Origin: Pseudomonadota bacterium
GTDB lineage: Bacteria; Pseudomonadota; Gammaproteobacteria; Acidithiobacillales; Acidithiobacillaceae
DNA: 32,433 nucleotides
Reading direction: 5' to 3'
NCBI GenBank assembly: GCA_021827445.1
Contig: JAKAVW010000002.1
Coordinates: 1 to 32,433 of the forward strand
Part shown: one piece after another, positions 23,215 through 28,356 of the stretch
Layout: every line of letters starts with the position of its first letter
How positions within the stretch are numbered: the stretch's first letter is position 1
Notes under the pieces: generated by a model
Seen by the model: only the letters and a program-made list of their open reading frames with translations
Told to the model about the DNA's origin: nothing
Database searches by the model: none
Position numbers and translations under genes: made by a program

Positions 23215-23523
23215 CTAACTCAGCATTTCAAGCAATACGGAGTGCCACTCCGAAAGGGCTATCTCGCCCATTTTTCCAGCCAGGCGGTGCTTGTCTACTG
23301 CACGAATCTGGTCGAGCAATATGCGGGCTGGTTTACCCGTAAACACCAATTCCGGCCTGCAACCCAGTGGTTGCCCTGCGCTGGTCAGCGGGGCCACGAT
23401 GACACGAGGTAATGCTGAATTGAGATCGTCTGGAGACACAATCAAAGCTGGTCGCGTCTTTCTGATTTCAGTGCCCACAGTGGGATCGAGATTCACCCAG
23501 TACACCTCACCACGCTTTACCAT
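23215..23523 (-). CDS. mazF: MazF/PemK-family endoribonuclease toxin
   Basis: mRNA interferase toxin of a type II toxin-antitoxin pair. It has 102 aa from the ATG at 23523; the ORF-track start is a GTG two codons earlier. Family motifs: VKRGEVYWVNLDPTVGTEIRKTRPALIVS (with the catalytic arginine), VIVAPLTSAG (with the catalytic threonine) and DQIRAVDKHRLAGKMG. All are intact, so the toxin looks active. It overlaps the antitoxin stop by 7 bp, the usual coupled order antitoxin-toxin. Cleavage specificity cannot be predicted. Confidence 0.93.
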   Translation of the reverse strand: MVKRGEVYWVNLDPTVGTEIRKTRPALIVSPDDLNSALPRVIVAPLTSAGQPLGCRPELVFTGKPARILLDQIRAVDKHRLAGKMGEIALSEWHSVLLEMLS

Positions 23524-23753
23524 GCCCACTCTTCAACACCTTCATCTACAGGTATCTGGTTTAGAGGTTCCACGTCCATATCTGACCGATAGCCCTCAAA
23601 CCACCCTGCGCGCATCGCGCGCAGGGGCCTTATAACCAAAGCGTTACCTTCCACGGCAATATCTACGTCATCATCCATCCCGCAGGCCGCCAGAAATGGT
23701 GCTGGAATGAGAATGCCACGTGAATTACCTATCTTCCGTATGGTGGATCGCAT
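23517..23753 (-). CDS. mazE: MazE-family antitoxin (AbrB-like swapped-hairpin)
   Basis: A 78-aa antitoxin that neutralises MazF and represses the operon. The ATG at 23753 is chosen because it gives the family start MRSTIRKIGNSRGILIPAPFLAACGMDDDVDIAVEGNALVIRP, an AbrB-type DNA-binding hairpin, and has GGGGGAG upstream; the ORF-track start adds 26 unrelated residues. The acidic C-terminal tail (DMDVEPLNQIPVDEGVEEWAW) is the typical unstructured toxin-binding segment. Confidence 0.92.
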   Translation of the reverse strand: MRSTIRKIGNSRGILIPAPFLAACGMDDDVDIAVEGNALVIRPLRAMRAGWFEGYRSDMDVEPLNQIPVDEGVEEWAW

Positions 23754-23775
23754 ACAATATCTCCCCCGCAATGAA

Positions 23776-23796
23776 ATTATAATAATGTTATAACAT
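23776..23796 (-). promoter_or_regulatory. Promoter and candidate MazE operator
   Basis: An exact TATAAT on the minus strand (23781-23776) lies 22 nt before the mazE ATG. Immediately upstream is a perfect 12-bp palindrome ATGTTATAACAT (23785-23796), lying within the spacer of the promoter. A MazE-type repressor bound there would block transcription. No good -35 is visible. Confidence 0.5.
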
Positions 23797-24139
23797 GTGA
23801 GCGATGGAACGCAAGCCGTGTTGTGAATCACTCATCTGCGACGTTGGTGATACGAACAGATACAGGGAGGTCGCATAGTCCAATATCTGGACATTCGCTA
23901 TCGTTCTCACCGCCTCGTCTAAGGTAACCGTCTCTTTTCCGCAGTTCTGTTCGCCGATCGCAAGGGATGCGGTGTCGAGACTGTTGGTCAATTTCAATGC
24001 CGGCGCTTTTTGTCAACATCGTCATTGGCCCCTTTCTAAACTTGTTCCGGCTGCATGCCATAGAGTTAGCCATTCAATCATGATTTGGATATTCACGCCG
24101 TGCGTATTGCTCTGTGCGTTGCACGATCATCTACTAGTA
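23797..24139. other. Gap with coding-like debris between mazEF and the sugar kinase
   Basis: Two overlapping minus-strand frames (23788-23997 and 23828-24073) give protein-like stretches such as LDEAVRTIANVQILDYATSLYLF, but no recognisable domain, no convincing ribosome site, and the first runs into the mazEF promoter. I read them as remnants of a lost gene rather than functional genes. No transposase motif is legible. Confidence 0.4.
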
Positions 24140-25667: not shown

Positions 25668-25770
25668 CTATAGCAAAAACTCTCGTGCCCCATGAGTCTC
25701 TCTCCACCATCGTCCTCTTGGCCTTCAAGTGTTCTCGCGAGTGTTTGGCAATGCTCGCCGACGAGCCCCC

Positions 25771-25800
25771 TATAATATTTAATCTTGATTAAATATTATA
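25771..25800. repeat. Perfect 13-bp inverted repeat
   Basis: TATAATATTTAAT-CTTG-ATTAAATATTATA. The 30-bp element is pure A/T in both arms and can form a hairpin or bind a dimeric regulator. It contains TATAAT on both strands, so it could also hold divergent -10 elements. It is not followed by a T tract. Confidence 0.6.
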
Positions 25801-26089
25801 GTAATTATATTTAACTTTTGTTAACTAGAAGCCTCCCCTATACTACACTTCAGTTATCGCCACTCTGTGCGCGCCGATAAATCTCTATGGGGAGAGGGGA
25901 CGAGCTATGAGGTTTTGTGGCAAATCCAATAAGTATTCGCGAACTGGGCTAGCTCTGCGTCCAAAGCGATCTGCGACAATAGTATCACATTCAGCCGATG
26001 GGTACGAAGAAGAAATCGTTCTCTGCTGTTCGGTGTTGCTGCATCGGAAAAGAGCGGTGTACGGGTTCTGACCATAGCAAAAAATGACA

Positions 26090-26103
26090 ATAAATATATT
26101 TAT
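26090..26103. promoter_or_regulatory. 14-bp palindrome before the two-TM gene
   Basis: ATAAATATATTTAT is a perfect palindrome ending 21 nt before the ATG at 26125. Location and AT content suit a promoter or operator. Chance is not excluded in AT-rich sequence. Confidence 0.35.
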
Positions 26104-26124
26104 CCAATACAGTGGGGTTATGCG

Positions 26125-26976
26125 ATGTCAAAGGCTATGTTTCTACGAATATTTATTGGGTTATTTGGTATGGTATTTATCGTGCTAACATTCTGGTTGA
26201 GCGCATACTTTCATTTGAACATTTCGATAAAGCTGGTAATTGTTTTGGCTTTTGCGTTGGCGACATTTTTTGCAGAAGTGATAATAGCCATCGATAATCT
26301 AGAAAAAAGATTAAAAAATGCTTTCCCGTCATTGGAGCTTTCTCTTAAGGATCAGATTGCACTCAATGAAACCATAAAGCTATATAATAAACTAAAAAAG
26401 AATAACACGGGTATTTCTACCAGAATAGCTCTTGCGGATTTTGAGAAAATACATCATGTATTAAGTCAGGCAGAAAAAAATGGAGACTTTGTTTTTCATG
26501 ACATTTATTCAGCTTCGATGATCTTGCTAGCGGCATTAGAGCCAGGACAGTCATTTAAAGTTGTAAGCAACCTTACCAAAAGGTTTTATTGGAAATCAGG
26601 GAAGGACATGTCTGAACATGCAAAGCTAAACTATCGGCAGGCAAAAAGAGGTGTCCACATTGAACGTATATTTATTTTAAACAACAAAGATGATTTATCT
26701 GAAATAAAAGAAATCATGGAAGAACAGGAAGAAAATAATATCAACGTATCGTACGCTTTTAGAAGCGATTTAGACAAGCTGTTGCCATATGCTAGCTTTG
26801 CCATATCAGAAGAACAAACAGCAGGGATAATATCACACAGGGAGGATTCTTTGGGAAAAGTGACTATCACATCGAATAATGAAATAATCACTGATCTTGC
26901 CACAAAATTTGATGATATAAAAAGACAAGCACAAACTGTCAAGCTTGCATCAGAAATTCACCAGACTAATACCTAA
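26125..26976 (+). CDS. Two-TM protein of unknown function with a PLD-like C-terminal region
   Basis: A 283-aa protein with codon use much richer in A and T than its neighbours, a sign of transfer. Two TM helices at the N-terminus (about residues 7-29 and 33-56) leave a short loop outside and a large cytosolic part. Residues 60-115 are helical and charged. Residues 125-265 contain SASMILLAALEPGQSFKVVS, HAKLNYRQAKRGVHIERIFIL and EIKEIMEEQEENNINVSYAF, a pattern I associate with catalytically dead phospholipase D-like sensor domains; no HKD motif is present. GGGG lies upstream of the ATG. It stands alone. A role in membrane stress or phage defence is only a guess. Confidence 0.75.
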   Translation: MSKAMFLRIFIGLFGMVFIVLTFWLSAYFHLNISIKLVIVLAFALATFFAEVIIAIDNLEKRLKNAFPSLELSLKDQIALNETIKLYNKLKKNNTGISTRIALADFEKIHHVLSQAEKNGDFVFHDIYSASMILLAALEPGQSFKVVSNLTKRFYWKSGKDMSEHAKLNYRQAKRGVHIERIFILNNKDDLSEIKEIMEEQEENNINVSYAFRSDLDKLLPYASFAISEEQTAGIISHREDSLGKVTITSNNEIITDLATKFDDIKRQAQTVKLASEIHQTNT

Positions 26977-27327: not shown

Positions 27328-28356
27328 TCAGCCATTATTCCACAAAGAATGATCCCTTTTGAGGAACTCGTCATATGGAATATAGTGAGAGCAATCGGAG
27401 GAAAATGTCAATCCTACTGTACCGTTAAAGATATTGATCGATCCAGAGCGAAGATAAAACATTCCTTTCATGAGTCTCAACGTTCGCAAATTACTCAATA
27501 TAGCCCGAATCTCTTGGTGGGTTACCACAGTTCCGTCTGGATAGGAGCGCTTGGGATACGCCAAACAAATAGCCGGATCAATTAGTTCTTCCATGGTCAG
27601 CAGACGATACCGATACGGATCATCCATCACCCAAAGTATGGCCTGGCTGCTGGAGAAATGCAGAATTACATGATACACCCCATGTACGAGTATCAATTCT
27701 TCCACCACACTAAGCACGGTATCCAGATGCCGATCCATTTTGCTTTCCGAGCGCATCTTCGTAACGACCGTATCTGAAATGAACGGGTCTCCTTCGAACC
27801 GCCGGGAATACCGGGGCTCTTCGTATATTTCGCCTGGCTGAGGCAAGTCCCTCAAAGCAAAATCGGCACCTATGAAACCGAGAAGCATTCCGTCACTGTC
27901 ACGTACAAATTGGACAGCGGTTAATGACGGCCGTAGCGCCCGCAGACTGATGTAAGCTTCGCATAACAGAAAATCGACAGCTTGGACGCCTTCTCGGATG
28001 TAGGGCCATTGCTGATACTGCGCCTCGCGATTTTTGTCAGAATACTCGGCGGCCAGCAAGGCTTCTCTGGTGTACGGCCGGTCTGATCGATCCCGGCCAA
28101 AGTGCTCGCCGAGCAGACCTTCACGGCTGATGTTGGACGTTATCTGCACTCCACCGGTGTCCAACGCATATAGAAATTTACAGTGCGGCACAGTGGAGAA
28201 GGCCTCGTTCAATGCAGCCTCCATTTTCGGACGGTCACCCCACACATGACTGCATGCATCCGCCAGGTGTCGCAACGGGTCGTACAGCAACCCGGTAAGC
28301 AACGCACGTTGCTGAAATACCCGTCTGGGCAGAGAAGAGTCTTCGTGCGTACTCAT
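27328..28356 (-). CDS. Cytosolic protein with a Cache/PDC-like sensor domain
   Basis: A 342-aa protein without TM helices or signal peptide. Residues about 58-172 resemble a PDC/Cache ligand-sensing domain: KFLYALDTGGVQITSNIS, GRDRSDRPYTREAL, YISLRALRPSLTAVQFVRDSDGMLLGFIGADFALRDLP. This fold usually senses small molecules outside the cell; a soluble version is less usual. Residues about 185-342 match nothing I recognise. GGAGGG about 8 nt before the ATG supports the start. It is encoded on the same strand 127 nt after dabA, so it may belong to the dab transcript and sense carbon or pH state. That link is inference. Confidence 0.65.
   Translation of the reverse strand: MSTHEDSSLPRRVFQQRALLTGLLYDPLRHLADACSHVWGDRPKMEAALNEAFSTVPHCKFLYALDTGGVQITSNISREGLLGEHFGRDRSDRPYTREALLAAEYSDKNREAQYQQWPYIREGVQAVDFLLCEAYISLRALRPSLTAVQFVRDSDGMLLGFIGADFALRDLPQPGEIYEEPRYSRRFEGDPFISDTVVTKMRSESKMDRHLDTVLSVVEELILVHGVYHVILHFSSSQAILWVMDDPYRYRLLTMEELIDPAICLAYPKRSYPDGTVVTHQEIRAILSNLRTLRLMKGMFYLRSGSINIFNGTVGLTFSSDCSHYIPYDEFLKRDHSLWNNG

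Follow-up and report, generated by a model that had tools for sequence, protein, structure and literature searches.

The gene at positions 26125-26976 of the window, the whole 32,433-nucleotide stretch of Acidithiobacillaceae DNA analysed here, encodes a protein in which two N-terminal transmembrane (TM) helices are joined to a domain of phospholipase D (PLD) fold lacking the catalytic HKD motif. The gene is a genuine protein-coding gene under purifying selection, and the two-TM pseudo-PLD proteins are a new, unnamed family of known fold. It is tentatively proposed that the protein is a membrane-tethered ligand sensor or adaptor.

26125-26976, forward strand: coding sequence of the 283-residue two-TM pseudo-PLD protein (open reading frame call, orthologues, purifying selection)

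The first-pass annotation had described a reading frame of this exact position and length and of low GC content, and both descriptions hold. The gene starts with ATG, with GGGG about nine bases upstream, and has a GC content of 35% (GC3 34%) in a region of 50-60% GC. The window genome belongs to the same genus as A. ferrivorans DSM 22755, whose copy of the protein is 89-90% identical. Comparison of these two copies gave a dN of 0.057 and a dS of 0.85, a dN/dS of about 0.07 (0.067), and such conservation indicates that the frame is a real protein-coding gene. The dN/dS of family pairs with usable dS ranged from 0.04 to 0.15, and the pair from genomes G010 and G028 had a pN of 0.12 with saturated pS. 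Moreover, 61 residues are invariant over family members spanning 40-90% identity which, together with the purifying selection, indicates that a function has been kept without the catalytic motif. A chimeric assembly was rejected because gene order is unchanged in G002, the genome of a close relative, with 94-96% sequence identity.

26149-26211, forward strand: TM1, residues about 9-29 (hydropathy; helix 3-29 in the models)
26230-26292, forward strand: TM2, residues about 36-56, in a long helix that runs on to residue 66 (hydropathy; helix 33-66 in the models)
26482-26928, forward strand: PLD-superfamily domain, residues about 120-268 (Foldseek matches to TrmBL2, PLD, NucT, Nuc, Zucchini, FAM83 and PLD3)

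Hydropathy peaks at residues ~1-29 and ~30-60, together with helices 3-29 and 33-66 of the AlphaFold models, indicate two TM segments. K3 and R8 precede TM1 and the charged stretch EKR-K follows TM2, so that by the positive-inside rule the C-terminus would be cytosolic; a cytosolic location of the PLD-like domain fits this pattern. The linker, residues ~60-120, is helical and poorly modelled. From about residue 120 to 268 strands and helices alternate in the models, with a run of strands and a helix at the end.

Two AlphaFold models were made, the first from 8 sequences and the second from 20, and their mean pLDDT was only 68-74 (68 and 73.5, respectively). The leading Foldseek matches of the first model were TrmBL2, phospholipase D, NucT, FAM83, PLD3, Zucchini and Nuc. 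The second model gave PLD3, polyphosphate kinase, FAM83 and F13 with weaker E-values, the best being 9e-4; polyphosphate kinase, too, has the PLD fold. Every match with E<=0.001, 36 for the first model and one for the second, belongs to the PLD superfamily or has the PLD fold, and the leading matches of both models thus place the domain in this fold. The two TM helices and the PLD-like region recognised in the first-pass annotation are both upheld. At the level of sequence, the PLDc profile of Pfam did not match the protein, and hhalign of the family profile against PLDc_2 proteins was not significant (probability about 1%). Assignment to a known family by sequence was rejected, as searches of Pfam, PHROGs, NCBIfam, PADLOC and PDB returned nothing above threshold. 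A literature search found no described equivalent of the two-TM pseudo-PLD family.

26788-26811, forward strand: degenerate HKD position, Y222-x-S224-x4-E229 replacing H-x-K-x4-D (profile alignment to genuine PLDc_2 proteins)
26836-26847, forward strand: invariant HRED, residues 238-241, adjoining the GSxN position of active PLDs (23-member alignment; PLDc_2 mapping)

The HxKx4D motif, which the first-pass annotation had already found wanting, is absent from all 23 members examined. With Y-x-S-x4-E aligned over H-x-K-x4-D, the domain is a pseudoenzyme by the standard criterion and is predicted from these residues to be catalytically dead. The PLDc_2 proteins used for the alignment come from related genomes; the alignment, which has a non-significant score, agrees with the predicted strands 224-228 and 233-237 and places I236-S237-H238-R239 over GSxN. 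Y222 and H238-R239-E240-D241 are invariant in 23/23 members, and the conserved polar residues of the PLD-fold domain are D121, Y155-W156, N169, Q172, R181, Y222 and HRED 238-241.

TrmB has a PLD-like fold without HKD and binds ligand with it, and the DUF1669 domain of FAM83 uses the PLD fold as a non-catalytic scaffold. In Foldseek the first model matched the C-terminal domain of the archaeal regulator TrmB/TrmBL2 (PDB 5bpi/5bpd) better than any other structure (E 4e-7), but TrmBL2 is missing from the leading matches of the second model and there is no sequence match. Furthermore, TrmB has an N-terminal DNA-binding helix-turn-helix, whereas the pseudo-PLD protein has no N-terminal winged helix-turn-helix and carries its two hydrophobic helices there instead. 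FAM83 DUF1669 (PDB 5lzk, 4urj) superimposes with a TM-score of about 0.6 over the domain, but FAM83 is a eukaryotic, soluble scaffold with no detected sequence similarity to the pseudo-PLD protein. The single-HKD nucleases NucT, Nuc and Zucchini (6ehi, 1byr, 4gel) likewise consist of one PLD-fold domain of comparable size (TMt 0.49-0.67); unlike the present family, with its Y-x-S-x4-E, they carry HKD.

The reading favoured here, although tentatively, is that of a pseudo-PLD protein tethered to the membrane as a ligand sensor or adaptor in constitutive envelope or acid-niche physiology, with expression that perhaps tracks inorganic carbon in the window lineage. On the computed anatomy and fold, the two TM helices would tether the PLD-fold domain to the cytosolic face of the inner membrane. 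We infer that a ligand is most likely bound in the old active-site groove, either a sugar or a molecule bearing phosphate, such as a phospholipid headgroup, a nucleotide, polyphosphate or a nucleic-acid end. The protein is probably a dimer, by analogy with its single-HKD relatives, and ligand binding may be relayed to the membrane helices or to a partner.

The possibility was considered that the protein is a membrane-acting anti-phage or abortive-infection effector, in which the pseudo-PLD domain would sense infection and the TM helices would permeabilise the membrane. The architecture of two TM helices and a sensor fits, and two-TM defence effectors such as the SLATT-like proteins and PDC-M50A likewise combine two N-terminal TM helices with a cytosolic part. 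In contrast to these, the pseudo-PLD protein matches no PADLOC profile and, above the cut-off, no Pfam family, and the main branch of the family has no partner gene. The main-branch gene stands alone and monocistronic in many different chromosomal settings, among neighbours that read from sequence as TauE-like, formate dehydrogenase-like, DUF445-like, cobalamin-related and RecB-like, and synteny is common to close species only. In the window, a MazF/PemK toxin gene and a MazE-like antitoxin gene lie at 23215-23831 on the reverse strand, about 2.3 kb to the left of the pseudo-PLD gene. HicAB-like genes are found near the main-branch copy at locus L081 and VapBC-like genes near that at L085, again as read from sequence. 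This proximity of some main-branch copies to toxin-antitoxin genes speaks for an effector, but a PADLOC scan (1e-10) of 69 main-branch neighbour proteins found no family matching more than one protein. Moreover, searches of phage, plasmid and viral-contig collections gave no match to the protein, and mobile carriage was rejected. The low dN/dS and the broad carriage in one order also suit a constitutive role better. The defence role that the first-pass annotation had suggested for the window gene is not borne out by its ordinary, non-recurrent neighbours, and an anti-phage effector is considered unlikely, and less probable than the sensor or adaptor proposed above.

The first-pass annotation had named housekeeping neighbourhoods as the outcome that would speak against defence. 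The main branch is largely found in such settings, but this does not extend to a divergent branch of 40-41% identity (L091, L092, L094), so that members of the wider family may yet act in defence. All three divergent loci have a GNAT acetyltransferase gene directly downstream, 6-13 bases apart. Two of the three have in common a further small protein and one of SocA/Panacea type, and two of the three adjoin restriction or Thoeris-like genes. These last are defence islands (L092 with a type IIG restriction enzyme; L094 with Thoeris ThsB-like TIR proteins, a PDC-M50 candidate pair and a Z1/type II restriction helicase), and the presence of divergent copies there beside Panacea proteins favours an anti-phage effector. 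The pseudo-PLD and GNAT arrangement (L091 4504-5805, L092 1247-2913, L094 4373-6203) may be an undescribed module. It is rather improbable that the whole family supplies the membrane effector to a defence or stress module not described so far. On this reading the effector, encoded in the divergent branch in an apparent operon with GNAT (and, at two of three loci, the small protein), would act alone in the main branch, where ligand binding by the pseudo-PLD domain would switch the TM helices.

Scanning 84,980 species genomes with a sequence pattern turned up seven loci, which belong to Acidithiobacillus and to acid-mine MAGs, Candidatus Acididesulfobacter among them. Whole-genome searches found the family in 20/30 genomes of the Ca. 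Acididesulfobacter order and in 6/29 Acidithiobacillaceae genomes, where two of the six copies are broken; 399 genomes drawn from the phylum held no further genome with the family. A match in G126 was rejected because it covers the hydrophobic N-terminus inside a long transporter-like frame. Published genomes of Ca. Acidulodesulfobacterales have 29.9-37.4% GC (PMC6776010), which the 35% GC of the gene matches. The intact Acidithiobacillaceae copies, four in number, group in a single supported clade (96/92), making transfer from Acidulodesulfobacteriota likely. Transfer from Acidulodesulfobacteriota to Acidithiobacillaceae is the simplest reading, its direction being taken from GC and breadth since the root of the tree is not firmly placed. 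The earlier suggestion of horizontal transfer is thus supported by GC contrast, distribution and the single clade.

25738-25933, forward strand: leader or promoter element common to dab-type operon leaders of the genus (sequence comparison)
25778-25792, forward strand: LysR/CbbR-type box TTTAATCTTGATTAA (TTA-N7-TTA), inside the inverted repeat 25770-25801 (motif scan, leader alignment)
25810-25824, forward strand: second box TTTAACTTTTGTTAA (TTA-N7-TTA; motif scan, leader alignment)

The dab operons serve inorganic-carbon uptake. The sequence flanking the gene had been described as debris, but not all of it is, as 25738-25933 is a ~74% copy of a dab-type leader found in several Acidithiobacillus genomes. 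Elsewhere this leader precedes a small reading frame and dabB-like genes (L045, L049) or another gene (L046, L048, L050). It recurs in many Acidithiobacillus genomes with two LysR-type boxes, and often with a small reading frame (MSFFRQLE...), at L045 2725-2940, L046, L047, L048, L049, L050 and L052, and some of the genomes hold several copies. Contig C53 of the window genome, which shares a 161-base overlap (99%) with the end of the window, carries one such leader, and the leader upstream of the A. ferrivorans pseudo-PLD gene is a diverged form. The window leader has its boxes and its core in common with the dab-type leaders. The two TTA-N7-TTA boxes are kept in most homologous leaders and are of LysR/CbbR type; the motif TTTAAYNTTNNTTAA occurs at two sites in the window, both inside the leader, against 0 expected. 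CbbR sites of A. ferrooxidans have the same motif form, TNA-N7-TNA (PMC2942843). A structured RNA in the leader was rejected, since Rfam gave only chance-level matches, and a short frame at about 25908-26071 was not taken as a gene because it is not conserved in A. ferrivorans.

The gene, probably acquired from Acidulodesulfobacteriota, now stands in the window lineage behind this leader, and its expression may follow inorganic-carbon status. Such CO2-linked expression, suggested by the computed leader homology, may apply to the window gene. The start codon is some 300 nt downstream of the boxes, a sigma-70-like match at 26084-26113 is nearer to it, and inspection of the 120 nt preceding the G010 and G028 copies showed no leader of this kind, which together argue that CO2 control is not a family trait.

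The presence of the gene in only 6/29 Acidithiobacillaceae genomes, with two broken copies, suggests that its role is dispensable there. It could also be a captured low-GC gene that is functionless in this host and heading for decay. The G002 copy is broken by a nonsense change and the loss of 2 bp, and an 84-bp deletion (25744-25827) takes out both of its boxes, as if promoter and gene had decayed together; the G012 copy is a fragment and most Acidithiobacillaceae are without the gene. However, the gene is intact both in the window and in A. ferrivorans, the two copies having a dN/dS of 0.067, and the G010/G028 pair has a low pN against saturated pS, so decay is judged improbable.

That the protein was recruited beside dabBA, under control of CbbR, as part of the inorganic-carbon (dab) apparatus is more doubtful still. 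The common leader with LysR boxes and the adjoining dabA/dabB speak for this, as does the G012 fragment, likewise beside dabA, but the copies in Acidulodesulfobacteriota and in G010/G028 have unrelated neighbours, which indicates that the function of the family is not dab-specific. Several other features of the dab surroundings were observed. A 342-residue protein without Pfam match (window 27328-28356, reverse strand), which reads like a Cache-type sensor, is encoded beside dabA in several Acidithiobacillus genomes and has a relative in L095. An IS21-like element (IstA/IstB-type, read from sequence) at L013 12582-15024 interrupts dabA in the G002 relative with the broken pseudo-PLD gene. In A. 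ferrivorans, two further genes, globin-like and roadblock-like (read from sequence; L009 4066-5022, reverse strand), separate the pseudo-PLD gene from the dab cluster; the window lacks them.

Least probable of all is a still active hydrolase or transferase using the non-canonical residues H238, E240/D241, Y222 and H125 in the PLD fold, for although HRED adjoining the GSxN position is invariant, as are D121, R181 and N169, the H-x-K of active PLDs is missing at the aligned place and H125 is replaced by Q or N in some members.

The preferred sensor or adaptor reading gives the family its interest. A selected, unnamed family joins a two-TM anchor to a PLD domain that appears catalytically dead, and through it the idea that dead PLD domains act as membrane-side ligand sensors in bacteria can be clearly tested. 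The family was seen here only in two unrelated acid-mine bacterial groups, apparently passed between them, and in the window lineage the captured gene is now situated behind a carbon-uptake-type promoter.
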